Of a DNA stretch of 64,000 nt, positions 5,469 to 31,794 are shown in pieces. Made by a program: the position numbers and the translations under genes. The notes below the pieces were generated by a model. The model had not been told where the DNA came from. It was given only the letters and a program-made list of their open reading frames with translations, and did no database searches. Each line of letters begins with the position of its first letter. Within the stretch, counting starts at the first letter, position 1. The stretch spans positions 124,001 to 188,000 of the forward strand of contig NZ_JACHJJ010000004.1 in assembly GCF_014203605.1 (NCBI RefSeq), written 5' to 3'. This DNA is from Thiemannella venezuelensis (GTDB lineage: Bacteria; Actinomycetota; Actinomycetes; Streptosporangiales; Streptosporangiaceae).

Positions 5469-5518
5469 CGGGGGACCGCTCTGCGCGGACATGTCATCCG
5501 CGCGGGTGACGCCGGACC

Positions 5519-8445: not shown

Positions 8446-9159
8446 ATGCGAAAAACGATCATGATTGTGGTGATGGCGCTGATAGCCGCCGGAGCCACCG
8501 TCCTCACGGCCTCCCCGGCTCTGGCGCACGGCTACGTGTCGTCGCCGCCGAGCCGCCAGGCGATGTGCGCCCAGGGCAAGGTCTCCAACTGCGGTCCCAT
8601 CATCTACGAGCCGCAGAGCGTGGAAGGCCCCAAGGGCCAGCGCAACTGCCACGGCGGCGTCGGCCGGTTCGCCCAGCTCAGCGACGAGAGCAAGAACTGG
8701 CCCGCGACCTCCGTCGGCACCAGCGTGAACTTCAACTGGGTGCTGACCGCGCGCCACGCCACCAGCACCTGGGAGTACTACATCGGCGGCACCCGGATCG
8801 CGGTCTTCAACGACCAGGGCCGCCAGCCGGGTGCGACGGTGACGCACAACGTGAACCTGTCCGGCTACAGCGGGCGGCAGAAGGTCCTGGCCATCTGGAA
8901 CATCGCCGACACCGCCATGGCCTTCTACTCCTGCATCGACCTGCAGATCGGCGGCGGCAACCCGGACCCGGACCCGACGCCGACGCCCACCCCGACTCCG
9001 GACCCGACGACTCCCTCGGGGACCTGGTCCGCCGGCACCGCGTACGCGGCCGGCGCCCAGGTCACCTACGGCGGCGCGACCTACCGGTGCCGCCAGGCGC
9101 ACACCGCCTACGCCGGCTGGGAGCCGCCGAACGTCCCCGCGCTGTGGCAGCGGCTCTGA
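8446..9159 (+). CDS. Secreted AA10 lytic polysaccharide monooxygenase with CBM5/12
   Basis: 237 residues. A 27-residue Sec signal peptide ends TASPALA, leaving His28 as the mature N-terminus (HGYVSSPPSR). That residue and His104 (TARHATSTWEYY) form the copper histidine brace of AA10 enzymes. The catalytic domain ends near residue 170. A Pro-Asp-Thr-rich linker follows, then a 45-residue C-terminal module WSAGTAYAAGAQVTYGGATYRC ... GWEPPNVPALW typical of CBM5/12 chitin/cellulose-binding domains. It should cleave crystalline chitin or cellulose oxidatively outside the cell. Chitin is favoured by the module but not proven. The ribosome-binding site is AGAGGAG. It is monocistronic. Confidence 0.92.
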   Translation: MRKTIMIVVMALIAAGATVLTASPALAHGYVSSPPSRQAMCAQGKVSNCGPIIYEPQSVEGPKGQRNCHGGVGRFAQLSDESKNWPATSVGTSVNFNWVLTARHATSTWEYYIGGTRIAVFNDQGRQPGATVTHNVNLSGYSGRQKVLAIWNIADTAMAFYSCIDLQIGGGNPDPDPTPTPTPTPDPTTPSGTWSAGTAYAAGAQVTYGGATYRCRQAHTAYAGWEPPNVPALWQRL

Positions 9160-9198
9160 CCGGCCGGTAGCGGCGCTCGTCTTCTCGAAAGGAGACCG

Positions 9199-9702
9199 AT
9201 GGATCACATCCACGGCGCAGTGCTGTCGCTGTTCAGGGCAGTGGTCGGGCTGCTGTTCGCCTGCCACGGAGCGGCGAGCCTGTTCGGCGTCCTCGGCGGC
9301 CCGCACGGCGGGCGGACACCGGAGTTCGGCGCCTGGCCGGGATGGTGGGCGGCGGCGATCGAGCTGACCGGCGGCGGCCTCGTGCTGCTCGGCCTGGCGA
9401 CCCGCGCCGCCGCCCTGCTCTGCTCAGGAACGATGGCCTACGCCTACTTCGTCGTGCACCAGCCGAAGGGACTGTTCCCGCTCGTCAACGGAGGCGAGCC
9501 CGCGGCGCTCTTCTCCTGGTCCTTCCTGCTGGTGGCCGTGGTCGGCGGCGGCCCCTGGGCGCTGGACGCGCTCCTGGCCCGGTACCGCGGACTCCCGGGC
9601 CCGTCGGCGGCCCCGCCGCAACCGCCGGCGTTATCGGAGAGGCGGCTCGGCGCGACCGCCGGCGGTGATCCGCAGGCGCGCGAGTACGGCTCCGGCGCCT
9701 GA
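9199..9702 (+). CDS. DoxX family membrane protein with a TTA codon
   Basis: 167 residues with four transmembrane helices in about the first 135 residues (AVVGLLFACHGAASLFG, WWAAAIELTGGGLVLLGLA, LCSGTMAYAYFVVH, FSWSFLLVAVVGGG), the DoxX arrangement. A Pro/Ala-rich cytoplasmic tail follows. Leu145 is encoded by TTA (9631-9633), a rare codon in such genomes and hence a possible point of bldA-dependent translation, although it sits in the non-conserved tail. DoxX proteins are loosely linked to redox and sulphur metabolism; no specific role can be assigned. AAAGGAG precedes the ATG. It lies 39 bases after the LPMO gene but has no evident functional link. Confidence 0.75.
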   Translation: MDHIHGAVLSLFRAVVGLLFACHGAASLFGVLGGPHGGRTPEFGAWPGWWAAAIELTGGGLVLLGLATRAAALLCSGTMAYAYFVVHQPKGLFPLVNGGEPAALFSWSFLLVAVVGGGPWALDALLARYRGLPGPSAAPPQPPALSERRLGATAGGDPQAREYGSGA

Positions 9703-13768: not shown

Positions 13769-15916
13769 TCAGGGGACGGTGACGGGAACGGGGTCGGGGC
13801 GGGAGGACTCCGCCGCGGAGGGCGGCACCCGGAGCAGGCGGGCCGCCCACACGGGCAGCCACCAGTTCCACCTCCCCATGAGGGAGACCAGGGCCGGGAC
13901 CAGGAGGGCGCGGATCACCGTGGCGTCCAGCAGGACGCCCAGGCCCAGCCCCGTCGCGAATATCTTGAGCTCGACGGCGGGGGCCGCCGCCAGCGAGGCG
14001 AACGCCAGGAACAGGATGAGCGCCGCGCTGGTCACCAGCCGCCCGGTACGGCCGATGCCCTCGACGATCGCCGAGTGGGTCGAGCCGGTGCGGTCGTACT
14101 CCTCCCGCATCCTGGCGAGGATGAACACCTCGTAGTCCATCGACAGGCCGTAGAGGAACGCGAAGACCATCACCGGGACGAAGTCGACGATGGCGCCGGT
14201 CGGCTCGATGTTCCAGATCAGCTTGGAGCCGTAGCCGTACTGCCAGACGAGCACCATCGCGCCGATGACGGCGGCGAGCGACAGCAGGTTGAGGAGGATG
14301 GCCTTCAGCGGGAGCAGCAGGGACCGGAATCCTCTGGCGAGCAGCAGGAACGTCACCACGGAGATGAGCAGGAGCATCAGCGGGAACGACCCGTAGACCG
14401 CCTGGACGAAGTCCATGTTCTCCGCGGTGGGGCCGCCGACCCGGGCGCTCTCCGGTACGGCGGCGCGGACCCGCTCGACCGTCTCCTGGCCCTCCCGGGA
14501 GCTGCCTTCGGCGGCGGGGACGACCGTGATCAGCGCCGTGCCCTCCTTGCGCCACGCCGGAGAGTCGGGGGCGGCGGCCGTGCGGACTCCGGGAACGGCC
14601 GCGAGGCGGGCGGCGACCGGCGCCGGGTCGCCGGACACCAGGACGTCGATCGGGGTCAGCACGCCCGAGGAGACGCCCTGGCTCTTGAGGGTGGTCAGAG
14701 CCTCGTAGGCGGGCCCCGACTTGGCCAGCGATCCGCTGTCGGCCTCACCCAGCCGGAGGCCCAGGGCGGTCCCGGCGAGTGCCAGCAGCACGGCGCACGA
14801 CGCCACGGCGGCCGGCCAGCGGTACCGCACGACGCGCCGGGCCCAGGCCGTCCAGCCGGGGCTGGCCGAGGAGTCCTTGCGCAGTCTCGGCCAGTCCAGC
14901 CGCCGGCCCATCGTGGCCAGGATCACGGGCAGCAGCGTGATCACCGCCAGCATGCTGACCACGGGGATCAGCAGGCCGCCGTAACCGACGCTGCGCAGGA
15001 ACGGCACGGGCAGCAGCACCATGGCGAACAGCCCGATCGCGACGGTGACCCCACTGAAGATCACCGCGCGTCCGGCGGTCGCCATCGCCCGCCGGACCGC
15101 CTCGTCCCCGCGGTGGCCGCTCGACTGCTCCTCCCTCCACCGGGTGACCAGCAGAAGCGAGTAGTCGATGGCCACCCCCAGCCCGAGCATCGCGACGATG
15201 TACTGCACGATGTCGCTGACCGGGGTGACCCCCGCCAGCCCGTAGATGGACAGGAAGCACGCCAGGATCGAGACCGCGGCGATGAGGAGCGGCACGAGCG
15301 CGAGGAACGACCCGAAGACGAAGGCGAGGACCGCCAGTGCGCCCACGCCGCCGATCAGGGTCTCGGCCAGCAGGCTGATCCCGCCTCCGCCGCCTCCGCC
15401 GTCACCGCTCTCCTCCAGCGGGTCCATGCCTGTGACCTGCACCGCGGTGCCGTCGGGCAGCGCGGATCCGAGCGCCGCGGCGACGGGACCGCTCTGGTCC
15501 GCGCCGCGGAACTCCTCGGCGACGTCCGGGGTGAAGACCAAGGCGAAGGTGGTACGGCCGTCGCGGCCGACGAAGCGGGGGTCACCGGTGTCGGCGTAGG
15601 AGACGACCCGGGCTCCTGTCGTCTCCGCCACCGACGCGAAGGCCTTGCCCAGCACCTCCCTGGTGCCGGGGCTGTCCACGGTCCGCCCCTCGGGGAGTGT
15701 GATCACCGGGATGAGCGGCTCGTTGCCCGCTTCGCTGCCGTAGGTCCGCGCGATCGCCTGGTTCGTCTCGAAGGCGGCCTGCCCGGGCTGGGAGAACCCC
15801 TCGGAGAGGCGCCCTTCCATCCGGGTGATCGCCACCACTCCGGCCGCCGACAGGGCCAGCCATATCAGGGTCACCAGCAGCTTGTGCCGCAGCACGAACT
15901 CAGAGAATCTCTGCAT
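13769..15916 (-). CDS. MMPL/RND family exporter
   Basis: 715 residues with the duplicated MMPL architecture: a helix at residues 10-30, an extracytoplasmic domain to about 190 (including a GDGGGGGGG stretch), a helix bundle to about 350 with the proton-relay-type segment GLGVAIDYSLLLVTRWREE, a second outer domain, and a second bundle with YGLSMDYEVFILARMREEY. Such RND proteins use proton-motive force to export lipids or hydrophobic compounds. The position just upstream of the polyketide cluster makes it a possible efflux component, but that is inference. The ATG at 15916 gives the expected cytoplasmic N-terminus QRFSEFVLRHKLLV. Confidence 0.85.
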   Translation of the reverse strand: MQRFSEFVLRHKLLVTLIWLALSAAGVVAITRMEGRLSEGFSQPGQAAFETNQAIARTYGSEAGNEPLIPVITLPEGRTVDSPGTREVLGKAFASVAETTGARVVSYADTGDPRFVGRDGRTTFALVFTPDVAEEFRGADQSGPVAAALGSALPDGTAVQVTGMDPLEESGDGGGGGGGISLLAETLIGGVGALAVLAFVFGSFLALVPLLIAAVSILACFLSIYGLAGVTPVSDIVQYIVAMLGLGVAIDYSLLLVTRWREEQSSGHRGDEAVRRAMATAGRAVIFSGVTVAIGLFAMVLLPVPFLRSVGYGGLLIPVVSMLAVITLLPVILATMGRRLDWPRLRKDSSASPGWTAWARRVVRYRWPAAVASCAVLLALAGTALGLRLGEADSGSLAKSGPAYEALTTLKSQGVSSGVLTPIDVLVSGDPAPVAARLAAVPGVRTAAAPDSPAWRKEGTALITVVPAAEGSSREGQETVERVRAAVPESARVGGPTAENMDFVQAVYGSFPLMLLLISVVTFLLLARGFRSLLLPLKAILLNLLSLAAVIGAMVLVWQYGYGSKLIWNIEPTGAIVDFVPVMVFAFLYGLSMDYEVFILARMREEYDRTGSTHSAIVEGIGRTGRLVTSAALILFLAFASLAAAPAVELKIFATGLGLGVLLDATVIRALLVPALVSLMGRWNWWLPVWAARLLRVPPSAAESSRPDPVPVTVP

Positions 15917-16427
15917 GCGGTCAGTAGACCGTCCCGGCCTTCTGCCGCGGTGAGATCTCCCTGAGAGAGCCCTGTGCATCTCCTTCACAATTCAGAATGG
16001 AATCGGGACACAGTCGTGAACGGACGCGGACAGTTCGTCCCGCCGTGGATCATTGAATCATTAACTTGATTGCGGAACGTTTTCCGAGGCGCTTCCAACC
16101 TTTGTCGAACCCCGGAGGGGCGATGATTCCACAGGGCTTTCTAAGGGATCGCCGAGCATCTCGGGCGCAGTGGGAGTGTAGTATCCGCCGGCTTCGAGCG
16201 GGGCGGTCGGGTGGAAATTTTCGCAGGCCAGACGGGATCGAGCGGGTCGCTCGGGTTCCGAGGCCCCGGGGGTCGCCTGTCTCCGCTGGTCGCTCGGGTA
16301 TGCCGCGGCAGAACCGAATATTGTTTCATTTAGACGCCTCCCGCCGGGCCGCCACGGCATTTCGCGTTAAGTGACTGCGGCATTGCGAGATGTGACGCCG
16401 AGAACTGGGAGTCGGCTTAGGGATCCC

Positions 16428-16493: not shown

Positions 16494-16585
16494 GGACCGC
16501 TTTCTATTGGGCGGGAGCCCGGTCGCGTCCCTGAAGTCCGCCGCCTCCACGGTCGCAGGATCTGCGGCGCCGGAGGGGGTCGGTA

Positions 16586-17365
16586 ATGTTATTTGAGGGG
16601 GGACTCTGTGCGTTGTCCGGGTTCTTCCTCGGCGTTCTCACCGCACTGCTCTTCTCCGTGCGAAGAATCCGGCAGGCGCGTCACGACGCCGTCACGGCCG
16701 TCCGCGGGGAGCGGCGCCGTATCGCCCGGGAGCTGCACGACATCGTCGGGCACGGACTGCTCGTCATCGCGATGCACGCTCGCCGGCTTCCGGGGATGGC
16801 CAGGCAGACGAGTCCGATCGCGGGGGCGATCGACGACATGGCCAGGGTGACGATGCGCGACGTCCGGGAGCTGATCGGAACGCTCCGCGACAGCGATCCC
16901 GGAGACGCCCGGCGGGCCGCGCGGCCGCTCTCCCAGGCCATCACCGAGCTGGGAGCCCGGCTGCCGGGCGGGGAGCTCGCCTTCACCCTGGAGAACGTGG
17001 GGCATGAGCACCACATCCCGCCCGAGCTGCGCAACACCGTCCTGCGCATCGTCCAGGAGGGCATCACCAACGCGATCAAGCACGGTGCCGGCAAGCCCGT
17101 CCGGGTGGTGCTCTCCTTCGGCGACGAACTCGCCGTCAGTGTGGCGAGCGGCGCCGTACCGGCGGGGTGCGGCGTGGGCGGCCTGCGGAGCCCGAAGGGG
17201 TACGGCCTGATCGGCCTGCGCGAGCGGGTCGCCGTGCACGGCGGCTCCTTCGAGGGCGGGCACACCGCGCAGGGAGGATTCCTCCTGCGCGCGTGCTTCC
17301 CCGTTCCGGAGCCGGGGCAACGACCGAACGAGATGGAGGTTGAATGCGCGAAATACGCATCCTGA
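16586..17365 (+). CDS. NarL-type sensor histidine kinase with TTA second codon
   Basis: 259 residues. One membrane helix (residues 5-25, LCALSGFFLGVLTALLF) leads straight into a HisKA_3 dimerisation domain, RRRIARELHDIVGHGLL, with phospho-acceptor His51. A HATPase domain follows, ending with KGYGLIGLRERVAVHGG. There is no extracellular sensor domain, so the signal is membrane or cytoplasmic. The second codon (16589-16591) is TTA, so translation would need the rare leucyl-tRNA encoded by bldA in Streptomyces. GGAGGGGGT precedes the ATG. The gene overlaps the response regulator by 22 bases, and the pair flanks the PKS operons, making it the likeliest pathway-specific controller. Confidence 0.85.
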   Translation: MLFEGGLCALSGFFLGVLTALLFSVRRIRQARHDAVTAVRGERRRIARELHDIVGHGLLVIAMHARRLPGMARQTSPIAGAIDDMARVTMRDVRELIGTLRDSDPGDARRAARPLSQAITELGARLPGGELAFTLENVGHEHHIPPELRNTVLRIVQEGITNAIKHGAGKPVRVVLSFGDELAVSVASGAVPAGCGVGGLRSPKGYGLIGLRERVAVHGGSFEGGHTAQGGFLLRACFPVPEPGQRPNEMEVECAKYAS

Positions 17366-18000
17366 TCGCCGATGACCAGCCACTGGTCCGCAGCGGGCTG
17401 AAGGCGACCTTCGATGCGGTACCGGACATCATCATCGCGGGTGAAGCGGTGAACGGCGTCGAGGCGGTGCGCGGTGTCCGGAGGCTGAATCCCGACATCG
17501 TGCTGATGGACATCCACATGCCGCGCATGGACGGGCTGGAGGCCACCAGGGAGATCTACGAGCTCCAGCAGAACGACGCGACCAAAGTGATCATCCTGAC
17601 CATGTACGACCAGGACGAGCATGTCTTCGAGGCGCTCAGAGTGGGGGCGAGCGGCTTCATCCTGAAGGACGCCCCCACCGAGAAGCTGATCGAGGCGGTG
17701 CGCGAGGTCGCCACGGGTGAGGCGCTCCTGTCGCCTTCGGTGACCCGCAGGCTCATCGCCGAGTTCGCCCGCAGGCCGGTCCTCTCCACGGCCACGGCCC
17801 CGGAGCTGGCGAACCTGACCGATCGCGAGCTCGACGTCTTCAAATTGCTGGTCCGGGGATACGGCAACGACGACATGGCCAAGATGCTCGTGCTGGGTGA
17901 GAGCACGGTGAAGTCCCACGTGCAGCACCTGTACCAGAAGCTGGGTGTGCGCAACAGGGTTCAGGTCGTCATCTACGCCTACGAGAACGGCCTGGTCTAG
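17344..18000 (+). CDS. NarL/LuxR-type response regulator
   Basis: 218 residues. The receiver domain occupies 1-125, with acidic residues D10/D11, phospho-acceptor D56 (VLMDIHMP) and a Thr/Lys switch (ILTMY, ILKDAP). A LuxR-type helix-turn-helix occupies about 152-215 (LTDRELDVFKLLVRGYGNDDMAKMLVLGESTVKSHVQHLYQKLGVRNR). It is the cognate partner of the overlapping kinase and probably activates or represses one or both PKS operons. The gene ends before a strong hairpin and is convergent with the left PKS operon. Confidence 0.9.
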   Translation: MREIRILIADDQPLVRSGLKATFDAVPDIIIAGEAVNGVEAVRGVRRLNPDIVLMDIHMPRMDGLEATREIYELQQNDATKVIILTMYDQDEHVFEALRVGASGFILKDAPTEKLIEAVREVATGEALLSPSVTRRLIAEFARRPVLSTATAPELANLTDRELDVFKLLVRGYGNDDMAKMLVLGESTVKSHVQHLYQKLGVRNRVQVVIYAYENGLV

Positions 18001-18151: not shown

Positions 18152-18496
18152 TCAGGCCGGCACCCGGCCGGCCGTCTCCGCCTCGATGAGGAAGCGCAGC
18201 GACCTGGCCTCGGTGATGCAGTCCCGCAACGGCTTGACCAGGTCCCTGTGCTCGGAGGTGGCCTCCCAGGCGAGGAAGGACTCCAGGTCGGACCACTCGC
18301 TGGTGATCAGCCACTGCTCCGGGTCCGTGGCCGACCGGCACACCTGGTCCACCAGGTGGCCGGGCACGCCCTCCGCGACGAGGAACCGGATCTGCTCGTA
18401 GGCCGCGAGGAAGTCGTCCCGCCGTTCGACGGGAACCTTGACCAGGAACACGATCCTGGCCCTACCGTGTGATCTTTCGGACATCTCGGACACCAT
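18152..18496 (-). CDS. ABM (antibiotic biosynthesis monooxygenase)-fold protein
   Basis: About 114 residues with a dimeric alpha-beta barrel ABM signature: RIVFLVKVPVERRDDFLAAYEQIR, then PGHLVDQVCRSATDPEQWLITSEWSDLESFLAWEAT and EHRDLVKPLRDCITEARSLRFLI. In aromatic polyketide pathways, cofactor-independent ABM proteins oxidise anthrone-type rings to quinones or assist cyclisation; which applies here is inference. The starts ATG 18496 or ATG 18484 are both possible; 18496 follows the amidohydrolase stop by one base. It is the last gene of the leftward operon, followed by the hairpin at 18080-18113. Confidence 0.7.
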   Translation of the reverse strand: MVSEMSERSHGRARIVFLVKVPVERRDDFLAAYEQIRFLVAEGVPGHLVDQVCRSATDPEQWLITSEWSDLESFLAWEATSEHRDLVKPLRDCITEARSLRFLIEAETAGRVPA

Positions 18497-18497
18497 C

Positions 18498-19448
18498 TCA
18501 GACACCGTCCCCGACAAGCTCTTCGGTGAGCGCGAACAGGCGCGAGGCGTTGCCCCTGCTGATGCCCCGGAGCTCCTCCTCGTCCGTCACCTCACTCCGG
18601 ACGGCGTCGAGGATGCGGCTCACGGAGTTCATGAGCGGGGGCGCGTCGGTGCCGAACAGGATGTTCCCGGCCCCGAACACCTCGAGGTTCGCCCTGAGCT
18701 GCACCCTGCTGGGGACGGACGTCTCCACGAAGATCCGTCGCAGGGACTCGCTCGGGCGGGAGGCGAGCCGCGAGGGCTCCGCACCGGGGCGCGGAGCCAC
18801 GGCCAGGTCGAGCTTCTCCAGGAGGCCGGCCAGCCCGCCGCCTCCCGCCGCCGCGATGAGACGCAGCCCGGGATGGCGTTCCAGCCACCCCGCGCAGATC
18901 AGCGCGGCGACCCCCATGGTCACGTCGCCGGGCCGGGCCACATGCTCCACCAGGCCGGGATGCCGGACGCTGGAGGTGCCCACCGGCTCGGCCGGGGGGT
19001 GGAGCAGCACCGGGACGCCGGTCTCGGCGGCCATGGCGAAGAAGTCCCCGGCGGCCGCGGAGTCCAGATACTCGCCGTTGACGCTGGTGTTGACGATGAG
19101 GCCGACGAACCGCCAGTCCTTGACGAGCTCCGCCGCCTGGGACAGCATCGCGTCGCCGCCGAACGGGTCCAGATAGGCGTACGCCCGCAGGGCGCCGGGA
19201 AAGCGGCCGACGAGGTCGCCGATGGCCTCGTTGTAGGCGCGCACCTGGTCGGCCGACTGCGCGTAGTTGGCGGCGCCGGACCCCGGCCGCATGGATCCGG
19301 CCCCGCAAGGGCTGCCGATGATCGTCAGATCGATGCCGAGCGCCTGCTTCGCGGCGATCGACCCCTCGGCGTCGAACAGGCTCGGCGGACCGAAGCCTTC
19401 GCCGCCCGGAGCGGCGAGGTGGCCGTGGACGTCGACGAACACGCTCAC
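18498..19448 (-). CDS. Amidohydrolase_2 (ACMSD-like decarboxylase/hydrolase)
   Basis: 316 residues with the TIM-barrel metal signature of the ACMSD-like amidohydrolase family: DVHGHL (H-x-H at residues 8-10), GVPVLLHPPAEP (metal His near 170), FGTDAPP (Asp near 270) and GNASRLF at the end, typical of amidohydrolase_2. Members decarboxylate or hydrolyse aromatic acids. In this cluster, removal of the terminal carboxylate of the polyketide is a reasonable guess. It starts with GTG at 19448, overlapping the SDR stop by 4 bases; a second GTG at 19442 has a better-spaced GGGAGG. Confidence 0.8.
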   Translation of the reverse strand: MSVFVDVHGHLAAPGGEGFGPPSLFDAEGSIAAKQALGIDLTIIGSPCGAGSMRPGSGAANYAQSADQVRAYNEAIGDLVGRFPGALRAYAYLDPFGGDAMLSQAAELVKDWRFVGLIVNTSVNGEYLDSAAAGDFFAMAAETGVPVLLHPPAEPVGTSSVRHPGLVEHVARPGDVTMGVAALICAGWLERHPGLRLIAAAGGGGLAGLLEKLDLAVAPRPGAEPSRLASRPSESLRRIFVETSVPSRVQLRANLEVFGAGNILFGTDAPPLMNSVSRILDAVRSEVTDEEELRGISRGNASRLFALTEELVGDGV

Positions 19449-20305
19449 CTCCCGCTTCCCGGCCCGCCCGGACCCCCGGGGCCTCCTGGCCCGCCCGGCC
19501 CGCCCGGACCTCCGGGGCGGCCCGGACCGCCCGGCCCGCCGGGGGGAGGTCCCGCCAGCGCCGAGGTGAACCCGAACCTGCCCAGGACCGGGACGCAGCT
19601 CCCGTAGAGGCCGTCGGAGGCGGAGTCGGTCAGGAAACCCACGACGCGGGCGACCAGCTCGGGAGTGACCGTCTGGTCGAAGTCGATGTGCGGCCGGGAA
19701 CTGCGCATCTGCTCGGTGTCCGCGATCGTCATCACGATGGCGTTGGCGTGGATGCCGCGTCGCTTCACCTCGTGGGACATCGACCGCATCCAGGCCATCA
19801 GCGCGGCCTTCGAGGCGGCGTAGGCCGACAGGGCCGGCAGCGGCTCGTCGGCCAGCGGGCTGCTGAAGTAGACCAGCCGCCCCCCCTCGCCGAGGTGGGG
19901 CAGGACCGCCTGGGTGGCGGTCACCGCCGACCGGAAGTTGGCCCGCATCAGCTCGTCGTACCGGTCGAGGCCGGTCATCGCCACCGGTCCGGCGTGGAAG
20001 GCGCCGACCAGGTGGACGAGGCCGTCCAGCCGGCCCAGCCGCCGCACCGCCTCGGCGGCGGCGTCCTGGGCGCCCTCCGGCTCGCTCACGTCGGTCCGCA
20101 GGACCTCCACCCGGCCCGGCGCGCCGTACGACTTCTCCAGCTCCTCCAGCCGCTCGGCGTTGCGCGCGGTCAGGAGCAGCCTGTCACCGCGCTCGGACAG
20201 GAGCCTGATCGAGGCCTCCGCGAGATGCCCGGTGGCACCGGTGATCAGGAACGCCCTGCCGGATCCGGATCCGGATCCCGGCCCGTTCGCGACCGGGCCG
20301 GTCAT
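19445..20305 (-). CDS. SDR-family oxidoreductase with collagen-like Gly-Gly-Pro tail
   Basis: 286 residues. A classical short-chain dehydrogenase spans residues 17-250: the nucleotide motif is TGATGHL, the catalytic Ser is in VYFSSPLA and the catalytic Y-x-x-x-K is YAASK. After a Gly/Ser-rich start (GSGSGSGR) and the enzyme domain, the last 35 residues (about 252-286, bases 19448-19552) are almost entirely a Gly-Gly-Pro repeat, unlike any standard SDR ending. The reaction is unknown: a polyketide ketoreductase or dehydrogenase acting after cyclisation is likely. It overlaps both operon neighbours by 4 bases (ATGA upstream, GTGA downstream). Confidence 0.8.
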   Translation of the reverse strand: MTGPVANGPGSGSGSGRAFLITGATGHLAEASIRLLSERGDRLLLTARNAERLEELEKSYGAPGRVEVLRTDVSEPEGAQDAAAEAVRRLGRLDGLVHLVGAFHAGPVAMTGLDRYDELMRANFRSAVTATQAVLPHLGEGGRLVYFSSPLADEPLPALSAYAASKAALMAWMRSMSHEVKRRGIHANAIVMTIADTEQMRSSRPHIDFDQTVTPELVARVVGFLTDSASDGLYGSCVPVLGRFGFTSALAGPPPGGPGGPGRPGGPGGPGGPGGPGGPGGPGSGR

Positions 20306-20655
20306 GACGTGGCCACTCGGGTGGTGACGTGCTCCATCATCGCCCGCCGGAAGAAGGCGCGTGCGCCGTCGGGGGTGCCGGTGTCGCGCCGGTCCTCCTC
20401 CACGATGTGCTCGTCGAGCTCCCGTTCGAGCTGCTGGACGCTCGGCTGGGTCGCGAGGTGCGCCATCAGGCTCGGCAGGTTCCCGTCGATCTCGATCAGG
20501 CGGACGAGCAGGCCGTCCTTCAGGAACACCGAGGTGCTCAGCAGGCGGGTGCCGTCGGGGGTGACCCACTCCGGCGGGGCGTAACCGGACAGGAGGGTCT
20601 TCACCTTCTCCTCGCTTCCCGGCTTGATCCGGAACATGATCGCGTAGCGCTGCAT
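20302..20655 (-). CDS. SchA/CurD-like polyketide tailoring protein
   Basis: 117 residues beginning MQRYAIMFRIKPGSEEKVKT and continuing with GTRLLSTSVFLKDGLLVRLIEIDG ... LATQPSVQQLERELDE ... ARAFFRRAMMEHVTTRVA. This is the SchA/CurD-like domain found in spore-pigment clusters (schA, curD, WhiE ORFI). The fold is a small dimeric barrel, and the biochemical role is not well established. Its presence ties this operon to WhiE-type aromatic pathways. GAGGAAGG precedes the ATG. It is co-transcribed with the monooxygenase upstream (108-base gap) and overlaps the SDR. Confidence 0.85.
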   Translation of the reverse strand: MQRYAIMFRIKPGSEEKVKTLLSGYAPPEWVTPDGTRLLSTSVFLKDGLLVRLIEIDGNLPSLMAHLATQPSVQQLERELDEHIVEEDRRDTGTPDGARAFFRRAMMEHVTTRVATS

Positions 20656-20763
20656 CGTGGTCCTTCCTCTGGAGGTCGTGGCCAGCCTTGCCGCCCCCGC
20701 CCCGCCGCGTCTTCCGCCGGCCGCATGAGATGCGGCCTCCCCTCGGCGGAGGAGCACCGCCCC

Positions 20764-21945
20764 TCAGTGGGAGAGGCCGGTGTCCATCGTCAGCTCGTAG
20801 GTCTTGCGGTAGACCAGCCGGTCGAAGGTGAGCCGCATGAAGGCGTCCCGGAACCAGCAGGCCGCCGGGGCGCTCCACCGGCTGAACGCGCCGTTCGCGC
20901 GCGACCGCCTGACCACCTTGGCGGTACGGGCGACCCTGCGCCGCTCGTACTCGGCGAGCGCCCCGGGCACGTCACGCGCTCCGGCGAGGCAGGACGCCAG
21001 GACCACCGCTCCCTCGATCGCCTGGTTGGCCCCCTGCCCGAGGTTGAACGTCATCGGGTGCGCGGCGTCCCCGACCAGCGTGGCGCGGTCGGTGCTCCAG
21101 CGGGTCACCGGGTCGCGGTCGAAGATGTCGATGGGGGAGACCCCTCCCATCGGGGTGGCCTCGACCAGCTCCGCGACCGGTACCGGCCATCCGGCGAACT
21201 CCCGGGTGACGATCTCCCGCCAGGTCTGGCCGAAGGCGTCCATCCGGCGGCTGATCCGGTCGCTGATGATGGCGTCCCAGTACACGTGGCCGTCGGTGAG
21301 CGGGTAGTACACGAACCAGCGGCCCCGGCCGAAGGTGCTGACGAAGGTGTGGCCGGGCGTGCCGAGGCCGGGGACGTGGGCGATGCCCTGCCAGGCGGTG
21401 ACGCCCGCGTACCGGGGCGGCGGCTCGTAGGGCATCATGGCGCCCCGTACGGCGGAGCGCAGCCCGTCCGCGCCGACCAGGAGGTCTCCCCGCTCCTCCC
21501 GCCCGTCCTCGAACCGCACGGTGACGCCGTCCGCGTCGGAGTCGAACCCGGCGCACCGGGCCCCGAGGACCAGGTCGTCGCCGACCTCGGCGCTCAGCGT
21601 CCGGTGCAGCTCCGCGCGGCTGACCGTGTAGGCGGGCGCGCCCAGCCGGCCGGCCATCCGCTCGATGGACCAGTCGGCGAGGTCCCTGTCGCGCCACGAC
21701 CTGAACCGGTACCGCCTGAGCTCGTGGCCGATCTTCTGGACCGGCTCCTCCATGCCGATCCCGCGCAGCGCCGGGATCGCGTTGTGCCACAGGACCAGCC
21801 CTCCGCCGGCCTGGATGTCACGCAGGCGGGAGGCCCGTTCGTACACGCGGGCGGAGATGCCGGCCCGGCGCAGGGCGAGGGCCGTCGTGAGGCCGCCGAT
21901 GCCGCCGCCGACGACGACGACCTCCTTGATCGGGCTTCGGGACAC
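20764..21945 (-). CDS. FAD-dependent monooxygenase (group A hydroxylase)
   Basis: 393 residues, a PHBH-fold flavoprotein. The FAD motif VVVVGGGIGGLTTALALRRAG is at the N-terminus, the DG motif is LLVGADGLRSAVR near residue 165, and the GD motif is LVGDAAHPMTFNLGQGANQA near 290. Such enzymes hydroxylate aromatic polyketides with NAD(P)H and O2; a WhiE ORFVIII-like role is plausible. A GTG start with AAGGAG 8 bases upstream. It heads the leftward operon and is divergent from the cyclase operon across a 233-base region with a palindrome. Length is short compared with 500-residue PgaE/RdmE-type enzymes, as it lacks their thioredoxin-like C-terminal domain. Confidence 0.88.
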   Translation of the reverse strand: MSRSPIKEVVVVGGGIGGLTTALALRRAGISARVYERASRLRDIQAGGGLVLWHNAIPALRGIGMEEPVQKIGHELRRYRFRSWRDRDLADWSIERMAGRLGAPAYTVSRAELHRTLSAEVGDDLVLGARCAGFDSDADGVTVRFEDGREERGDLLVGADGLRSAVRGAMMPYEPPPRYAGVTAWQGIAHVPGLGTPGHTFVSTFGRGRWFVYYPLTDGHVYWDAIISDRISRRMDAFGQTWREIVTREFAGWPVPVAELVEATPMGGVSPIDIFDRDPVTRWSTDRATLVGDAAHPMTFNLGQGANQAIEGAVVLASCLAGARDVPGALAEYERRRVARTAKVVRRSRANGAFSRWSAPAACWFRDAFMRLTFDRLVYRKTYELTMDTGLSH

Positions 21946-22178: not shown

Positions 22179-22505
22179 GTGAGCGATCGGATTCTGATCG
22201 TGGCCCGCATGGAGCCGGGCGCGCAGGGCGATGTGGCAAAGCTGTTCGCGGCGTCGGACGAGACCGACCTGCCCCGGGTGCTCGGGGTGACGCGCCGCCA
22301 TCTCTTCAGCTACCACGACCTGTACTTCCACTACGCCGAATTCGAGGGAGAGGCCTCGGCGGCGATGGGGAAGGCGCGGGACCGGGACGACTTCCGGGAG
22401 CTGAGCGACCGGTTGAGCCCCTACGTCAAGCCGTTCGACCCCGAAACGTGGCGCAGCCCCGCCGACGCGATGGCGCGGGGCTTCTACTCCTGGGAGCCGA
22501 AGTGA
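22179..22505 (+). CDS. TcmI-type polyketide cyclase
   Basis: 108 residues matching TcmI/WhiE ORFVII-type second- or third-ring cyclases: RILIVARMEPGAQGDVAKLFAASDETDLPRVLGV, then RRHLFSYHDLYFHYAEFEG, a helix with RDRDDFRELSDRLSPYV, and ending ARGFYSWEPK. It steers regiospecific aldol cyclisation of the aromatic intermediate. A GTG start with GAGGAG upstream. It is the first gene of the rightward operon; its stop overlaps the carboxyltransferase start (GTGA). Confidence 0.9.
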   Translation: MSDRILIVARMEPGAQGDVAKLFAASDETDLPRVLGVTRRHLFSYHDLYFHYAEFEGEASAAMGKARDRDDFRELSDRLSPYVKPFDPETWRSPADAMARGFYSWEPK

Positions 22506-24184
22506 CGATCTCGCCGGTGGTCCAGGGAGCCGGCCAGGCGCAGGAGGACCGGTGGACGGTGTGCGGCCGCTGCCGTACGACCGTCTACGTGCCGCGGCTC
22601 GTCCGGGGGCAGCACGTCTGCCCCGAGTGCGGCCACCACCACAGGATCGGGGCCCGTGAGCGGATCCGGGGGCTCGTCGACGAGGGCTCCTTCCGTCCCG
22701 CCGCCGACCCGGTCCGGAGCACGGACCCGCTGGGCTTCGTGGACTCCCGCCCCTACGCCGACCGGCTCACCGAGGCGGTGCGGCGGACCGGCCTGGACGA
22801 CGCGGTCGTGTACGGCAGGGCCACCGTCGGCGGGTACCCCGTGGTGGTCCTCGCGATGGACTTCACCTTCCTCGGCGGCAGCATGGGCTCCGCGGTGGGC
22901 GAGGCGGTGACCCGTTCGGCCGGGGAGGCCGCGGACACCGGCACGCCTCTGATCCTCGTCTCCGCGTCCGGCGGGGCGCGGATGCAGGAGGGCGCGCTGT
23001 CGCTGATGCAGATGGCCAAGACGAGCCAGGCCATGCGGCGGCTGCAGCAGAGCGGCGTCCTGTCGGTGTGCCTGCTCACCGATCCGACGTTCGGCGGCGT
23101 CACCGCGTCGTTCGCGACGCTCGCCGACATCCTGATCGCCGAGCGGGGCAGCCTGATCGGCTTCGCCGGCCCCCGGGTCATCGCGTCGGCGACGCGGGAA
23201 CGGCTGCCGGAGGGCTTCCAGACCGCCGAGTACCTCCACGCCCGCGGCATGCTGGACCGGGTCGAGACGCGCGAGGGCGTCCGCCCGCTGCTCACGCGGC
23301 TGCTCGCGCTGCACCGCGGCGGCAAGCGGGCCACGTTCTCCGAGCTCTCGGCGATCGTCCGCGATCCCGGGGAGCTGCGCCCGCACCGCGCGGCGTGGGA
23401 GACGGTACGGCTGGCGCGCGACATCAGCCGCCCCACGACGCTCGACTACGTCTGGCACATGTGCGACGACTTCGTCGAGCTCCACGGTGACCGCGGGCAC
23501 GGCGACGACTCCGCCGTGGTCGGGGGCATCGGGTCGATCGACGGGACCAGCGTGTTGGTGCTCGGCCATCAGAAGGGCCACGACACCAAGGAACTGGTCG
23601 CGCGCAACTTCGGCATGGCCCACCCCGAGGGGTACCGCAAGGCCCTGCGCCTGATGCTCCTGGCCGAGCGGCACGGCCTGCCCGTGGTGACCTTCGTCGA
23701 CACCCAGGGCGCCGCGCCCGGGGTGGGGGCCGAGGAACGGGGGCAGGCGTGGGCGATCGCGGAGTGCATCGCGGGCATGTCGGAGCTGGGTGTCCCCGTG
23801 GTGTCCACGATCACCGGAGAGGGCGGCAGCGGCGGCGCGCTCGCGCTGGCCGTCGCGAACCAGGTGCTGATGATGGAGAACGCGTCCTACTCCGTGATCA
23901 GCCCCGAGAGCTGCTCCACCATCCTGCACGGCGACCCCTCGCACGCCTCGGCCATGTCCGAGGCGCTGCGGATCACCGGTCCCGAACTGCTCCGGCTCGG
24001 CGTCGTCGACGGGGTGGTCCGCGAGCCGGAGGGCGGCGCGCAGGCCGCACCGGCGCAGGCGGCGGCGAACCTGAAGGCGGCGATCCTCACCGCCCTGGAC
24101 GGGCTGTCGGGTCTGTCCCCCGAGGAACTGCGCAAGCACAGGTACGAGCGGTTCCGCGGACTGGGAGTGATCGCCGGTGTCTGA
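22502..24184 (+). CDS. Acetyl-CoA carboxylase carboxyltransferase, fused beta-alpha subunits
   Basis: 560 residues. The N-terminal half is AccD-like with an intact zinc ribbon (CGRC ... CPEC at about residues 19-41) and SASGGARMQEG. The C-terminal half is AccA-like with DFVELHGDRGHGDD, GHQKGHDTKE, TFVDTQGAAPGVGAEERGQ, ITGEGGSGGALALAVAN and ISPESCSTILH. Together with the following two genes it makes malonyl-CoA from acetyl-CoA, the extender for the PKS. Dedicated carboxylases occur in several type II PKS clusters. Gene overlaps on both sides indicate one translationally coupled operon. Confidence 0.93.
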   Translation: MTISPVVQGAGQAQEDRWTVCGRCRTTVYVPRLVRGQHVCPECGHHHRIGARERIRGLVDEGSFRPAADPVRSTDPLGFVDSRPYADRLTEAVRRTGLDDAVVYGRATVGGYPVVVLAMDFTFLGGSMGSAVGEAVTRSAGEAADTGTPLILVSASGGARMQEGALSLMQMAKTSQAMRRLQQSGVLSVCLLTDPTFGGVTASFATLADILIAERGSLIGFAGPRVIASATRERLPEGFQTAEYLHARGMLDRVETREGVRPLLTRLLALHRGGKRATFSELSAIVRDPGELRPHRAAWETVRLARDISRPTTLDYVWHMCDDFVELHGDRGHGDDSAVVGGIGSIDGTSVLVLGHQKGHDTKELVARNFGMAHPEGYRKALRLMLLAERHGLPVVTFVDTQGAAPGVGAEERGQAWAIAECIAGMSELGVPVVSTITGEGGSGGALALAVANQVLMMENASYSVISPESCSTILHGDPSHASAMSEALRITGPELLRLGVVDGVVREPEGGAQAAPAQAAANLKAAILTALDGLSGLSPEELRKHRYERFRGLGVIAGV

Positions 24185-24686
24185 GAGCGAACGGCCTGAG
24201 ACGGCCGACGGGCACGTCGGCTGGAGCGACACGCTCAAGATGCTCCGCGAAGAGGTGAGCAGCCTCGTCAAGACCGTCCCCGGGCCCGTCGCGAGCGTCT
24301 CGCTCCGCATCGGGGAGTGCGCCCTCGACGTCACGTGGGCGTCCGCGGCCGGCCCGCAGGCGCAGGTCGCGCAGGCGCCGGTCGCGCAGGTGGTCGCCGC
24401 CGAGCCGGCGGGCGAGGCGGAGGCCGCCAGGGACGCCGCGCTGCACGAGGTGACCGCCCCCCTGGTCGGAACCTTCTACGTCGCCCCGGAGCCGGGGGCC
24501 GGTCCGTTCGTGAAGCGGGGCGACCGGGTCGAGGCCGGGCAGACGATCGGCATCGTCGAGGCGATGAAGCTCATGAACCCGGTGGCGGCCGAGCGGGCGG
24601 GCGAGGTCGTGGAGGTGCTGGTGGGCGACGGCGAACCGGTCGAGTTCGGCCAGTGCCTGGTGCGAGTGAGGACGGACACGGCATGA
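24177..24686 (+). CDS. accB: Biotin carboxyl carrier protein
   Basis: 169 residues from GTG, overlapping the carboxyltransferase by 8 bases. The N-terminal domain is followed by an Ala/Gln/Val-rich flexible linker (about 56-90). The biotinyl domain follows with VTAPLVGTFYVAPEPGAGPFVKRGD and the biotinylation motif EAMKLMN, where Lys131 would carry biotin. It shuttles carboxybiotin between the biotin carboxylase and carboxyltransferase encoded on either side. Confidence 0.93.
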   Translation: MSESERPETADGHVGWSDTLKMLREEVSSLVKTVPGPVASVSLRIGECALDVTWASAAGPQAQVAQAPVAQVVAAEPAGEAEAARDAALHEVTAPLVGTFYVAPEPGAGPFVKRGDRVEAGQTIGIVEAMKLMNPVAAERAGEVVEVLVGDGEPVEFGQCLVRVRTDTA

Positions 24687-26065
24687 AACCGCTCTTCGAC
24701 AAGGTCCTCATCGCCAACCGGGGGGAGATCGCCCTGCGCGTGGCGCGCACCTGCCGGGAGATGGGCATCCGGACGGTGGCCGTCCACTCGACCGCGGACC
24801 GCGACGCCCGCTTCGTCTCCTACGCCGACGAGTCGGTGCACATCGGGCCGGGGCCCGCCAAGCGGAGCTACCTGTACGTGCCGAACGTCATCGAGGCCGC
24901 GCTCCGGACCGGAGCCGAGGCCATCCACCCGGGCTACGGCTTCCTGTCCGAGGACGCGGACTTCGCGCAGGTGTGCGCGGAGAACGGGATCACCTTCATC
25001 GGGCCGCGCCCCGAGGTCATGGAGTGCGTGGGCGACAAGGCGCGCGTCCGCTCCCTGATGGCCGCCGCGGGCCTGCCGGTCCTGCCGGGAAGCGAGGGGA
25101 CCGTTCCCACCCTCGGGGACGCGGAGGCGATCGCCGGCGAGATCGGCTACCCGGTCATCGTGAAGGCGGCGGCGGGCGGCGGCGGGCGGGGGATCGAGGT
25201 CGCCGGGGACCGCGCCGAGCTCCAGGAGGTCTACCGCAGGACGACCGCCCTGGCCCGGCAGGTGTTCGGCAACGGCGACGTCTACATCGAGCGCTACCTG
25301 CCCGCGGCGCGCCACGTGGAGATCCAGCTGCTCTGCGACGAGCTGGGCAACGCCGTCCATCTCGGGGAGCGTGACTGCTCGCTCCAGCGCAGGAACCAGA
25401 AGCTGATCGAGGAGGCTCCCTCGCCCGCCCTGCCGCAGCGGCTGCGGGCGCTGCTCGGCGAGTACGCGGTCGCCGGGGCGCGCAGCGTCGGCTACACCGG
25501 CGCGGGGACCATGGAATTCCTGGTGGACCCGGCGGGCAACGTGACGTTCATGGAGATCAACGGCCGGATCCAGGTGGAGCATCCGGTCACCGAGATGCTC
25601 ACCGGAATCGACCTCGTCAGGGAGCAGATCCGCGTCGCGGCGGGTCACCCGCTGCCGTTCACGCAGCAGGAGGTCCGGTTCACCGGCGCGGCCGTCGAGT
25701 GCCGGGTCAACGCCGAGGACCCGAGGGCGGGCTTCCGCCCCACGCCGGGCCGGCTCGAGGTCTTCCGCGTCCCCGGCGGCCCGGGGACCAGGGTCGACTC
25801 GGGGTTCGCGCAGGGGGACACGGTGCCGCCGAACTACGACTCGCTGGTGGCCAAGGTGATCGTCTGGGCGCCGAGCCGGGAGGAGGCCATCGCGCGGGCG
25901 CAGCGTGCCCTGGCCGAGTTCGAGGTCGGCGGGCCGGGCGTGGCGACCACGATCCCCCTGCTGCGGCAGCTGCTCGCCCACCCGTCGTTCGAGCGGGCCG
26001 AGCACACGACGCGCTTCGTCGACGAGCTGATGGCGGAGCAGCCGACGACCAGGTGGGCGGCGTGA
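24683..26065 (+). CDS. accC: Biotin carboxylase subunit of acetyl-CoA carboxylase
   Basis: 460 residues with the complete ATP-grasp biotin carboxylase: IANRGEIALRVARTCREMG at the start, AIHPGYGFLSEDADFA, the Gly-rich ATP loop VKAAAGGGGRGIEV, HVEIQLLCDELGN, GERDCSLQRRNQKLIEEAPSPAL and EINGRIQVEHPVTEM. Glu, Asn and Arg of the active-site strand are kept, while the usual Thr between Asn and Arg is Gly, a minor departure. It carboxylates biotin on AccB using ATP and bicarbonate. ATGA overlap with accB. Confidence 0.93.
   Translation: MKPLFDKVLIANRGEIALRVARTCREMGIRTVAVHSTADRDARFVSYADESVHIGPGPAKRSYLYVPNVIEAALRTGAEAIHPGYGFLSEDADFAQVCAENGITFIGPRPEVMECVGDKARVRSLMAAAGLPVLPGSEGTVPTLGDAEAIAGEIGYPVIVKAAAGGGGRGIEVAGDRAELQEVYRRTTALARQVFGNGDVYIERYLPAARHVEIQLLCDELGNAVHLGERDCSLQRRNQKLIEEAPSPALPQRLRALLGEYAVAGARSVGYTGAGTMEFLVDPAGNVTFMEINGRIQVEHPVTEMLTGIDLVREQIRVAAGHPLPFTQQEVRFTGAAVECRVNAEDPRAGFRPTPGRLEVFRVPGGPGTRVDSGFAQGDTVPPNYDSLVAKVIVWAPSREEAIARAQRALAEFEVGGPGVATTIPLLRQLLAHPSFERAEHTTRFVDELMAEQPTTRWAA

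Positions 26066-26551: not shown

Positions 26552-26565
<14 letters not shown>
26062..26565 (+). CDS. UspA-like protein inside the PKS operon
   Basis: 167 residues, weakly resembling the universal stress protein fold: first strand VVVVDGSADGYTAAGYAGSLAAGSGSALTVALL, a central helix region, then AAVRRGADRVVAGRRR. The N-terminus holds a GTGPGTGPGTG stretch encoded by a 12-base tandem repeat (26089-26122). The family's ATP-binding G-x2-G-x9-G-[ST] signature is not obvious, so it may be a degenerate, non-nucleotide-binding member. It overlaps accC by 4 bases and the ACP gene by 14, so it is firmly part of the operon. I know of no equivalent in standard type II clusters; the role is unknown. Confidence 0.55.
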
Positions 26566-28897
<2,332 letters not shown>

Positions 28898-28901
<4 letters not shown>

Positions 28902-30156: not shown

Positions 30157-31794
30157 ATGACACATTCCCGGTTCGACGTCGCCATCCTGGGATCAGGGAT
30201 CGCGGGGTCCGTGCTCGGCGCCATCCTCGCCAAGAACGGCGCCAGCGTGCTGCTGGTGGACGGCGGGGTGCACCCCAGGTTCGCCGTCGGAGAGTCGACC
30301 ACCCTCTACACGCTGAACATGTTCCGCGTGCTCGCGGAGCGGTACGGCGTGCCGGAGCTGGCGAACTTCCTCACCACCGACGCGTGCTACGAGCACATCG
30401 GCCCGACCTTCGGCACCAAGCGCAACTTCGGCTTCATGATCCACCGGGAGGGCGAGGAGCCGGACCCCCGGGAGGTCAACCAGTTCAGCCCGCCCTCGCT
30501 CAAGCTCCAGACCAGCCACCTGCACCGGCAGGACAGCGACACGTACCTGTTCCACACGGCGATCAAGTACGGCTGCGTCGCCCGGCAGGGCCTGCGCGTC
30601 ACCGGGGTGAACCTCGGCGACGACGAGGTGGAGATCACCGGACAGGGCGGCGAGCGGTTCACCGCCCGCTACCTCGTGGACGCGAGCGGCTTCCGCTCCC
30701 CCCTGGCCACGCAGCTGGGCCTGCGGGCCGAGCCGTCCGCGCTGAAGCACCACTCGCGGTCGCTGTTCACCCACATGCTCGACGTGCGCCCGACGGACGA
30801 GTGCCTGGACATGCCCCAGAGCGAGATGCCCCCCATCCCGTGGGAGCAGGGCACCATGCACCATCTCATCGAGCGCGGCTGGTTCTGGATCATCCCGTTC
30901 AACAACGACCCGCGGTCCAAGAACCCCCTGGTGAGCGTGGGCCTCACCTTCGACGAGCGGGTCTACCCCAAGCCCTCCGACATGACCCCGGAGGAGGAGT
31001 TCCACCACCACGTCAGCCGGTACCCGGTGCTCGAGCGCATCTTCGCCGACGCGAAGACGGTGCGGCCCTGGGTCTCGACCGACCGGATCCAGTACACCTC
31101 CACGAAGACCGTGGGCCACCGGTGGTGCCTGATGTCGCACGCCGCCGGCTTCATCGACCCGCTCTACTCGCGCGGCCTCACCAACACGGGCGAAGTGATC
31201 AACTCGCTCGCCTGGCGGCTGCTGGAGGCGCTGCAGGAGGACGACTTCTCGCAGGAGCGCTTCGCCTACATCGACGAGCTGCAGAGCGGTCTGATCAAGT
31301 ACAACGACGAGATGGTCAACTGCTCGTTCATCTCCTTCTCCGACTACGAGCTGTGGAACGCGGTCTGCCGGGTGTGGGCCGCCGCGGAGATCCCGATCAA
31401 CCTGCGCTTCGAGCGCTTCCTGGACCGCTACCAGGCGTCGGGCGACGACAACGTGTTCCGGGAGATGGAGAAGGCGCCGTACCCCGGTTCCTTCGTCCCG
31501 GACAACGCGGCCTACCAGGAGCTGTTCGCCGAGATGGTGCGGCTGTGCGAGGCGGTCGACCGGTCCGAGCGCGATGCCACGGAGGCGGGCCGGGAGCTCA
31601 TGAAGCTCGTCCAGGAGTCCGAGGCGGTCCTGCCCTTCATCGGTCTCGACGAGCGGGACCACCGCTTCATCTACCCCCAGCCTCCGTCGCTGATGAAGCT
31701 GTTCGGCTGGCTCGGCACCGAGGGGCCCGAGGAGATGCGCTACCTCGCCACGCTGCCCGGGGGTGGTCACTTCCCGCCCGGAGCCCCGCGATGA
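30157..31794 (+). CDS. Flavin-dependent halogenase (tryptophan-halogenase-like)
   Basis: 545 residues. The FAD-binding motif GSGIAG is at residues 12-17, and GES is at 45-47. Lys88 in FGTKRNFGFM is a good candidate for the catalytic lysine that relays HOCl/HOBr. The halogenase hallmark W-x-W-x-I-P is W242-P247 (GWFWIIP). A C-terminal helical region extends to the end. It would chlorinate or brominate an electron-rich ring of the polyketide using FADH2, supplied by the flavin reductase encoded 1.5 kb downstream. The ATG follows TGGAGCAGCC 17 bases after the chain-length factor stop. Timing (ACP-bound versus free substrate) is not deducible. Confidence 0.88.
   Translation: MTHSRFDVAILGSGIAGSVLGAILAKNGASVLLVDGGVHPRFAVGESTTLYTLNMFRVLAERYGVPELANFLTTDACYEHIGPTFGTKRNFGFMIHREGEEPDPREVNQFSPPSLKLQTSHLHRQDSDTYLFHTAIKYGCVARQGLRVTGVNLGDDEVEITGQGGERFTARYLVDASGFRSPLATQLGLRAEPSALKHHSRSLFTHMLDVRPTDECLDMPQSEMPPIPWEQGTMHHLIERGWFWIIPFNNDPRSKNPLVSVGLTFDERVYPKPSDMTPEEEFHHHVSRYPVLERIFADAKTVRPWVSTDRIQYTSTKTVGHRWCLMSHAAGFIDPLYSRGLTNTGEVINSLAWRLLEALQEDDFSQERFAYIDELQSGLIKYNDEMVNCSFISFSDYELWNAVCRVWAAAEIPINLRFERFLDRYQASGDDNVFREMEKAPYPGSFVPDNAAYQELFAEMVRLCEAVDRSERDATEAGRELMKLVQESEAVLPFIGLDERDHRFIYPQPPSLMKLFGWLGTEGPEEMRYLATLPGGGHFPPGAPR

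Follow-up and report, generated by a model that had tools for sequence, protein, structure and literature searches.

Recurrent TTA codons in a polyketide-cluster sensor kinase of Streptosporangiaceae and a short-variable-loop tRNA-Leu(UAA): a possible rare-codon brake

Described UUA-reading systems and the host

The bldA gene of Streptomyces encodes a class II tRNA with a long variable arm. Regulation through bldA and TTA codons in Streptomyces combines extreme rarity of TTA, a single tRNA gene with the UAA anticodon and a TTA codon in a cluster regulator, and the codon may lie anywhere in a gene and is poorly conserved between species (PMC4255298, PMC10327506, PMC4932002). The same features were found in the locus described here, which lies in a window of 64,000 nucleotides (C4:124001-188000) from the 8.18 Mb, 85-contig draft genome of a member of the Streptosporangiaceae. 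The host differs from Streptomyces in its family, in the short variable loop of its UAA tRNA, in the presence of TTA in tilS and in the carrier of the codon, which is a two-component pair. Outside Streptomycineae, TTA has been described as lacking a gene-start bias and as occurring sometimes in growth-associated genes (PMC4255298, a review citing earlier work).

Short variable loops have been described in other leucine tRNAs. Animal mitochondrial tRNA-Leu(UUR) reads UUR with a short variable loop, as does the host tRNA-Leu(UAA), but the host gene is a bacterial chromosomal one; the identity of the human mitochondrial tRNA rests on A73 and A14 (review, PMC9976931). A short-loop tRNA-Leu(TAG), bacterial and actinobacterial like that of the host, is present within a cluster of tRNA genes in Mycobacterium (PMC6582537), where it is an extra copy beside the normal isoacceptor, whereas the short-loop genes of the host are the only Leu(UAA), Leu(CAA) and Leu(UAG) tRNA genes found there. 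In the literature searched, which left subscription papers mostly uncovered, no account was found of actinomycetes generally decoding UUA with a class I tRNA-Leu(UAA).

The kinase locus and TTA usage in the host

The kinase ORF (16586-17365, +) has 259 codons and opens ATG-TTA-TTT-GAG, as the earlier note had correctly read it (ATG 16586-16588, TTA 16589-16591). Pfam matches place a HisKA_3 domain in its product, and the ATPase domain matched below cut-off only. In the window, the kinase gene and the adjacent response regulator gene share 22 bp. A HisKA_3 kinase domain with a Response_reg and GerE partner assigns the pair to the NarL-type two-component systems, with which it shares domains and gene order. 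The kinase differs from other NarL/LuxR-type kinases in its small size (259 aa), its minimal sensor part, where a single short hydrophobic segment is visible by eye at the N-terminus, and its scores against the NCBIfam models, none of which reached a cut-off. Scans around the kinase returned no promoter-like site and one terminator-like site, the latter at chance level.

Table 1. Predicted features of the window and short-loop leucine tRNA genes of the host
Feature	Coordinates	Strand	Remarks
MMPL-family exporter	13769..15988 (script's start 15916)	-	PF03176
Shine-Dalgarno-like sequence	16572..16579	+	GGAGGGGG
ATG start codon, kinase	16586..16588	+	GGAGGGGG at 16572-16579
TTA (Leu), codon 2	16589..16591	+	TTA is 23/47,320 Leu codons in genome sample
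Alternative in-frame TTG start, codon 10	16613..16615	+	own Shine-Dalgarno-like, purine-rich GAGGGGGGA at 16595-16603
Sensor histidine kinase, HisKA_3 type	16586..17365	+	PF07730, E 7e-14
NarL/LuxR-type response regulator	17344..18000	+	PF00072 (Response_reg), PF00196 (GerE)
Antibiotic-biosynthesis monooxygenase (ABM)	18152..18517	-	PF03992
Amidohydrolase	18498..19448	-	PF04909
SDR / ketoreductase-like	19445..20305	-	PF00106
SchA/CurD-like protein	20302..20757	-	PF04486
FAD monooxygenase	20764..21945	-	PF01494
Polyketide cyclase	22179..22505	+	PF04673
Acetyl-CoA carboxylase genes	22502..26065	+	carboxyltransferase 22502-24184, biotin carrier 24240-24686, biotin carboxylase 24683-26065
ACP; aromatase/cyclase-cupin	26552-26797; 26812-27642	+	
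Ketosynthase alpha; chain-length factor (CLF)	27654-28901; 28898-30139	+	PF00109/PF02801; alpha versus CLF inferred from order
Halogenase-like flavoprotein	30157..31794	+	PF04820
Leu(UAA) tRNA	G000:C5:101331-101404 (L185)		74 nt, short variable loop; reads UUA
Leu(CAA) tRNA	C13:106926-106999 (L187)		74 nt, short variable loop; reads UUG
Leu(UAG) tRNA	C19:158379-158452 (L186)		74 nt, short variable loop; reads CUA

The kinase/regulator pair adjoins a type II polyketide synthase (PKS) cluster (Table 1), in which a flavin reductase gene is also present. Up to 20 kb was fetched around the kinase in the best 18 of 39 other matching genomes of the family, and the assignment of the kinase to the PKS cluster was upheld: homologues of the ketosynthase alpha and/or acetyl-CoA carboxylase genes lie alongside in 14 of these 18 stretches. 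In 3 further relatives, SchA/CurD, SDR and amidohydrolase homologues stand beside the kinase, and the last, on a contig that ends early, has kinase and regulator only. WhiE-type spore pigment clusters are small gene sets not known to include carboxylase, halogenase-like or exporter genes, and their product is found in spores. The window cluster shares with them the minimal PKS, aromatase/cyclase and SchA/CurD-type genes, and to this extent the earlier label of a spore-pigment-like pathway stands, but carboxylase, ketoreductase-like SDR, halogenase-like, flavin reductase and MMPL exporter genes are present too, with putative membership of the pathway. The gene set looks more like that of a tailored, exported aromatic polyketide. 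Also near the cluster, an ORF at 8446-9159 combines LPMO_10 with a CBM5/12 module and probably encodes a secreted polysaccharide mono-oxygenase.

TTA usage was measured in a genome sample (1.66 of 8.18 Mb, ~20%) made up of the window and of 80 segments, 20 kb each, of the larger contigs, in which a script based on codon likelihood and Shine-Dalgarno sequences called 1,313 genes (446,356 codons). TTA occurred 23 times in this 20% sample, in 23 genes (1.75%), and at 23 of 47,320 Leu codons it is indeed extremely rare, as had been stated from the window. A smaller subset (window plus 40 stretches) gave 12 TTA in 669 genes, and the window itself has TTA in 3 of 61 called genes. The share of TTA genes resembles that of Streptomyces coelicolor, with 147 such chromosomal genes (PMC4255298). 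Pfam domains show the products of TTA genes to include two histidine kinases besides that of the cluster, a regulator with HTH_31/DUF5753, a GGDEF protein and an NRPS-like product, as well as peptidases and glycosidases; 2 of 20 sampled TTA proteins searched had no Pfam match. Within the window, a MASE1-PAS histidine kinase gene (56466-58562, -) carries TTA at codon 578. An OmpR-type regulator ORF (36900-37631) would also open early with TTA (ATG-CGT-TTA, codon 3); this TTA was not counted, since relatives put the real start probably at GTG 36936, with the TTA then in the leader.

One further TTA is codon 278 of tilS (L224:18333-19439, -), identified by a TIGR02432 match over its cut-off; by eye, the neighbouring genes look like hpt (phosphoribosyltransferase), ftsH and folate genes. 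By analogy with other bacteria tilS is probably essential, and its TTA suggests that UUA is probably read during growth, which agrees with the point made in the review on growth-associated genes (PMC4255298).

Leucine tRNAs and the reading of UUA

An Rfam search of the host returned 66 tRNA genes at E<=0.001 and 72 matches at E<=10, and ARAGORN made 69 calls, at loci covering all 66 Rfam matches and some weaker ones. Among these 69 calls from the 85-contig draft is one tRNA-Leu(UAA), and the check proposed earlier, locating this gene, thus returned a single copy (G000:C5:101331-101404). A missing UAA tRNA had been suspected until the short-loop gene was found through a covariance model built from five Leu tRNAs; the first pass with that model scored 150 candidates per genome, and absences there are uninformative. 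Pattern searches of the host for a class II Leu(UAA) gave no tRNA, their single match not being one.

The variable loop measures 5 nt by eye in all three 74-nt Leu tRNAs, and class II Leu tRNAs were called by ARAGORN only for GAG and CAG, which read CUC/CUU and CUG. Minimum-energy folds contain the acceptor and T stems in each of the three short-loop tRNAs, although the complete cloverleaf did not form in every case. By eye, the UAA, CAA and UAG genes all have A73, A14, G18G19 and a Leu-type D-loop, and the 15-48 pair is A15-U48 in UAA and CAA and G15-C48 in UAG. The leucine determinants of E. coli include A73, A14 and A15-U48, and tRNA variants lacking the long arm retain activity there (PMC9976931). 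One LeuRS gene scored over the TIGR00396 cut-off; a second LeuRS was rejected, the remaining matches falling below it. Two long ORFs with weak LeuRS matches, G000:C4:398774-400918 (870 aa) and C11:55442-57811 (867 aa), are perhaps of the ValRS type.

Because the UAA, CAA and UAG tRNAs lack the long arm, codon reassignment was tested. The aligned partner was Leu at 66% of 218 TTG sites, 70% of 41 CTA sites and 70% for CTG, and at 47% of 14 TTA sites, several of which are duplicates; in the kinase, TTA stands at two nearly invariant Leu columns. Reassignment was dropped, since TTG and CTA align with Leu as CTG does and TTA is consistent on few sites, and the genetic code of the host looks standard.

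Short-variable-loop Leu(UAA) genes are widespread in actinomycetes. In named genomes, from Nonomuraea, Streptosporangium, Planobispora, Planomonospora and other genera, all 54 of the 54 loci with an exact pattern match were confirmed by ARAGORN. With a looser pattern, matches came from 130 of 394 genomes of the class, in 54 of 137 genera, some unfetched low-GC matches among these perhaps not being tRNAs; all 30 of the 30 loci fetched were Leu(UAA), of 74-79 nt. In genus g87, probably Streptomyces, 1 of 39 genomes matched, although a missing exact pattern is not proof of absence. A wider family pattern matched 269 of 341 genomes, a count that was not used because many of these matches lay falsely within other tRNAs, Leu(GAG) and Ser among them (14 of 30 fetched loci were Leu(UAA)). 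Directly 5' of the Leu(UAA) gene, a TATGAT hexamer is present in 13 of 15 family loci (the host, its congener, L238, L239, L254, L255 and L261-L267) and absent from L246 and L247. A scan for the BldD box consensus in the 160 bp upstream of UAA tRNAs yielded a single weak match, in L268; the Streptosporangiaceae loci had none. Elsewhere in the host, G000:C1:4767-5638 (L180) packs an array of seven unusual tRNA-like genes into 0.9 kb, two of them short-loop Leu(CAG), and tRNA arrays were also seen in L260 (24 tRNAs in 3 kb) and L243 (10).

Recurrence of TTA in sister-cluster kinases and its possible meaning

A kinase search of 341 family genomes returned 40 with E<=1e-30, the host included; matches other than the best 18 of 39 described above have 34-41% identity. 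A Nonomuraea gerenzanensis locus that was added duplicates one of the 18 (identical kinase), and L098 was dropped from the tallies, its kinase being identical to that of L104. A kinase TTA is present at 9 of 19 non-redundant loci when the window is counted, and at 8 of 18 when it is left out. Family counts run from the start of the match to the stop codon, leaving out N-termini ahead of the match; within this aligned part, 9 TTA fall in 7 of 19 loci (the codon 2 of the window included), and in 2 more loci, L108 and L114, TTA lies just upstream of it. The N-terminal starts of several homologues are uncertain, and L113 and L115, with TTA near such starts, are uncounted; 11 of 19 loci would have a kinase TTA if the most upstream starts were taken, and 10 of 19 have none in the tally used here. 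In Nonomuraea L073/L104 (G155) and L098, neither ATG nor GTG nor TTG occurs in the reading frame of the kinase homologue from the preceding stop codon up to its conserved region. Kinase and regulator genes were both matched in full in 16 non-redundant relatives; in 12 of these the two genes overlap, by exactly 22 bp in L102, L103, L113, L114, L116 and L117.

The frequency of TTA in the kinase was compared with that in several sets of genes, and the tests were rerun without the window, since the window had prompted the search; the p-values are indicative only, because they ignore kinship among loci. Of the 326 remaining genes called in the relatives' loci, 7 have TTA (the set includes the duplicate L098, and the caller missed the kinase of L100, L113 and L116); against these, the 9 of 19 kinases gave a Fisher p of 5e-9, and 8 of 18 without the window gave 5e-8. 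In the 16 other cluster families together, TTA was found in 2 genes out of 174, compared with 7 of 19 kinases (9e-7; 6 of 18 versus 2 of 158 without the window, 1e-5). The excess over paralogous HisKA_3 kinases was modest, at 9 of 19 versus 3 of 29 (p 0.006; 8 of 18 without the window, 0.012), the 29 being those of the fetched loci out of 112 matches, from the host and its congener, and counted stop to stop. The ratio of TTA to TTG+CTA+CTT was 9 to 43 in the kinase and 2 to 137 in the other families (p 1.6e-4; 6e-4 without the window). The regulator has 2 TTA in 17 genes and, relative to other rare Leu codons (2 to 65), no enrichment (p 0.6). Part of the kinase excess is compositional, because kinase and regulator are richer in A/T third positions (0.099 and 0.092) than the 16 other families (0.022-0.077).

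The kinase TTAs lie mostly in different alignment columns, which indicates repeated gain. One well-aligned column is common to the congeners G188 and G189, and the few other coinciding columns are confined to the badly aligned N-terminus. The position of TTA differs among species, so that placement at codon 2, which the earlier note took for an efficient switch, is no conserved feature of the kinase. In L102 and L104, which have no counted kinase TTA, the adjacent regulator carries one; in L100, a contig end cuts the regulator adjoining the kinase at codon 45, the TTA codon, which was uncounted and is a possible third regulator TTA. L104 also has two NarL-type regulator homologues a few kb apart (8983-9627 and 5312-5947; 72% and 71% identity to that of the window).

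The rarity of TTA, the single decoding tRNA and the repeated appearance of TTA at different places in the kinase fit selection for a brake. We tentatively favor, at somewhat under even chances, the reading that the kinase TTA is a selected rare-codon brake on the two-component system of the cluster, limited by the supply of tRNA-Leu(UAA), and that the TTA of the window is one case of a recurrent enrichment, across Streptosporangiaceae, in the sensor kinase of this type II PKS cluster. Translation of the kinase would be limited by the supply of the single tRNA, and that of the response regulator probably too through the gene overlap, so that cluster output would then depend on tRNA supply or growth state. 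Such a brake would presuppose that UUA is decoded slowly in the host, that the supply of tRNA-Leu(UAA) varies with growth, that coupling passes the effect from kinase to regulator and that the pair controls the PKS.

The strongest competitor, possible but on the unlikely side, is tolerated drift, in which fast-evolving, AT-richer regulatory genes gain TTA under weak purifying selection with no regulatory effect. The higher A/T content at third positions of the kinase accords with it, as do the unconserved positions of TTA among the kinases, the TTA in tilS and the poor conservation of TTA in Streptomyces as well (PMC10327506); drift of this kind accounts less readily for an excess of TTA that tops TTG+CTA+CTT in the same genes, or for the excess over the 29 paralogous kinases, whose A/T third-position value is 0.080. 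Less probable again, as a cause of TTA at codon 2, is selection acting on start regions at large in favor of weakly paired, A/T-rich codons. In the genome sample, TTA occurs at codons 2-5 in 3 of 1,313 genes and at codons 2-20 in 6 of 1,313 (6 of the 23 TTA), and per Leu codon it is 16-fold commoner at codons 2-5 (3 of 475) than beyond codon 100 (13 of 33,192). AGA, AAA, ACA, ATA and TTT rise ~4- to 12-fold in the same comparison, so that codon-2 placement alone is weak evidence. Against start-region selection, the TTAs of the orthologues are spread along the whole gene, and predicted start-site folding is equal for TTA and TTG and with TTA at most 2.7 kcal/mol weaker than with CTN codons; given these differences, mRNA structure is a weak candidate for the cause of the TTA.

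Translation might instead begin at TTG 16613, the sole close alternative start of the ORF, and if this were the only start, TTA 16589-16591 would be untranslated leader. We consider this improbable: the TTG has a Shine-Dalgarno-like GAGGGGGGA ahead of it and the alignments of 13 of 18 relatives open at query residues 8-12, but TTG accounts for only 14 of 669 starts in the gene calls of the script, ATG 16586 is the better start codon with a good Shine-Dalgarno sequence, and several relatives have putative starts 5' of the same hydrophobic segment. Least probable, by a small step, is a full bldA-type developmental switch, with UUA left untranslated until tRNA-Leu(UAA) appears late in development. 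The earlier note had proposed dependence on bldA; the single UAA tRNA found, the extreme rarity of TTA, its presence in a cluster regulator and its recurrence in the sister kinases speak for that proposal, and the other TTA genes appear mostly auxiliary from their Pfam domains. Against it, the host is not Streptomyces, its tRNA has a short loop rather than the class II form of bldA, and TTA occurs in tilS, beside hpt-, ftsH- and folate-like genes, which makes a strict on/off switch less likely. Both the tilS codon and the different type of tRNA speak against transferring the bldA model of development to this host, and the review doubts a developmental role of bldA outside Streptomycineae (PMC4255298).

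TTA-based control has been regarded as a speciality of Streptomycineae, and the short-loop tRNA-Leu genes challenge the rule that all tRNA-Leu outside animal mitochondria have a long variable arm. A more speculative and doubtful extension is that many actinomycetes other than Streptomyces read UUA by a short-loop, class I tRNA-Leu aminoacylated by their ordinary LeuRS, and that in Streptosporangiaceae this tRNA would form an independent, bldA-like control layer over polyketide two-component systems. The kinase TTA also matters for heterologous expression of such clusters, and the cluster family with its repeated kinase TTA offers a natural experiment for TTA control beyond Streptomycineae.
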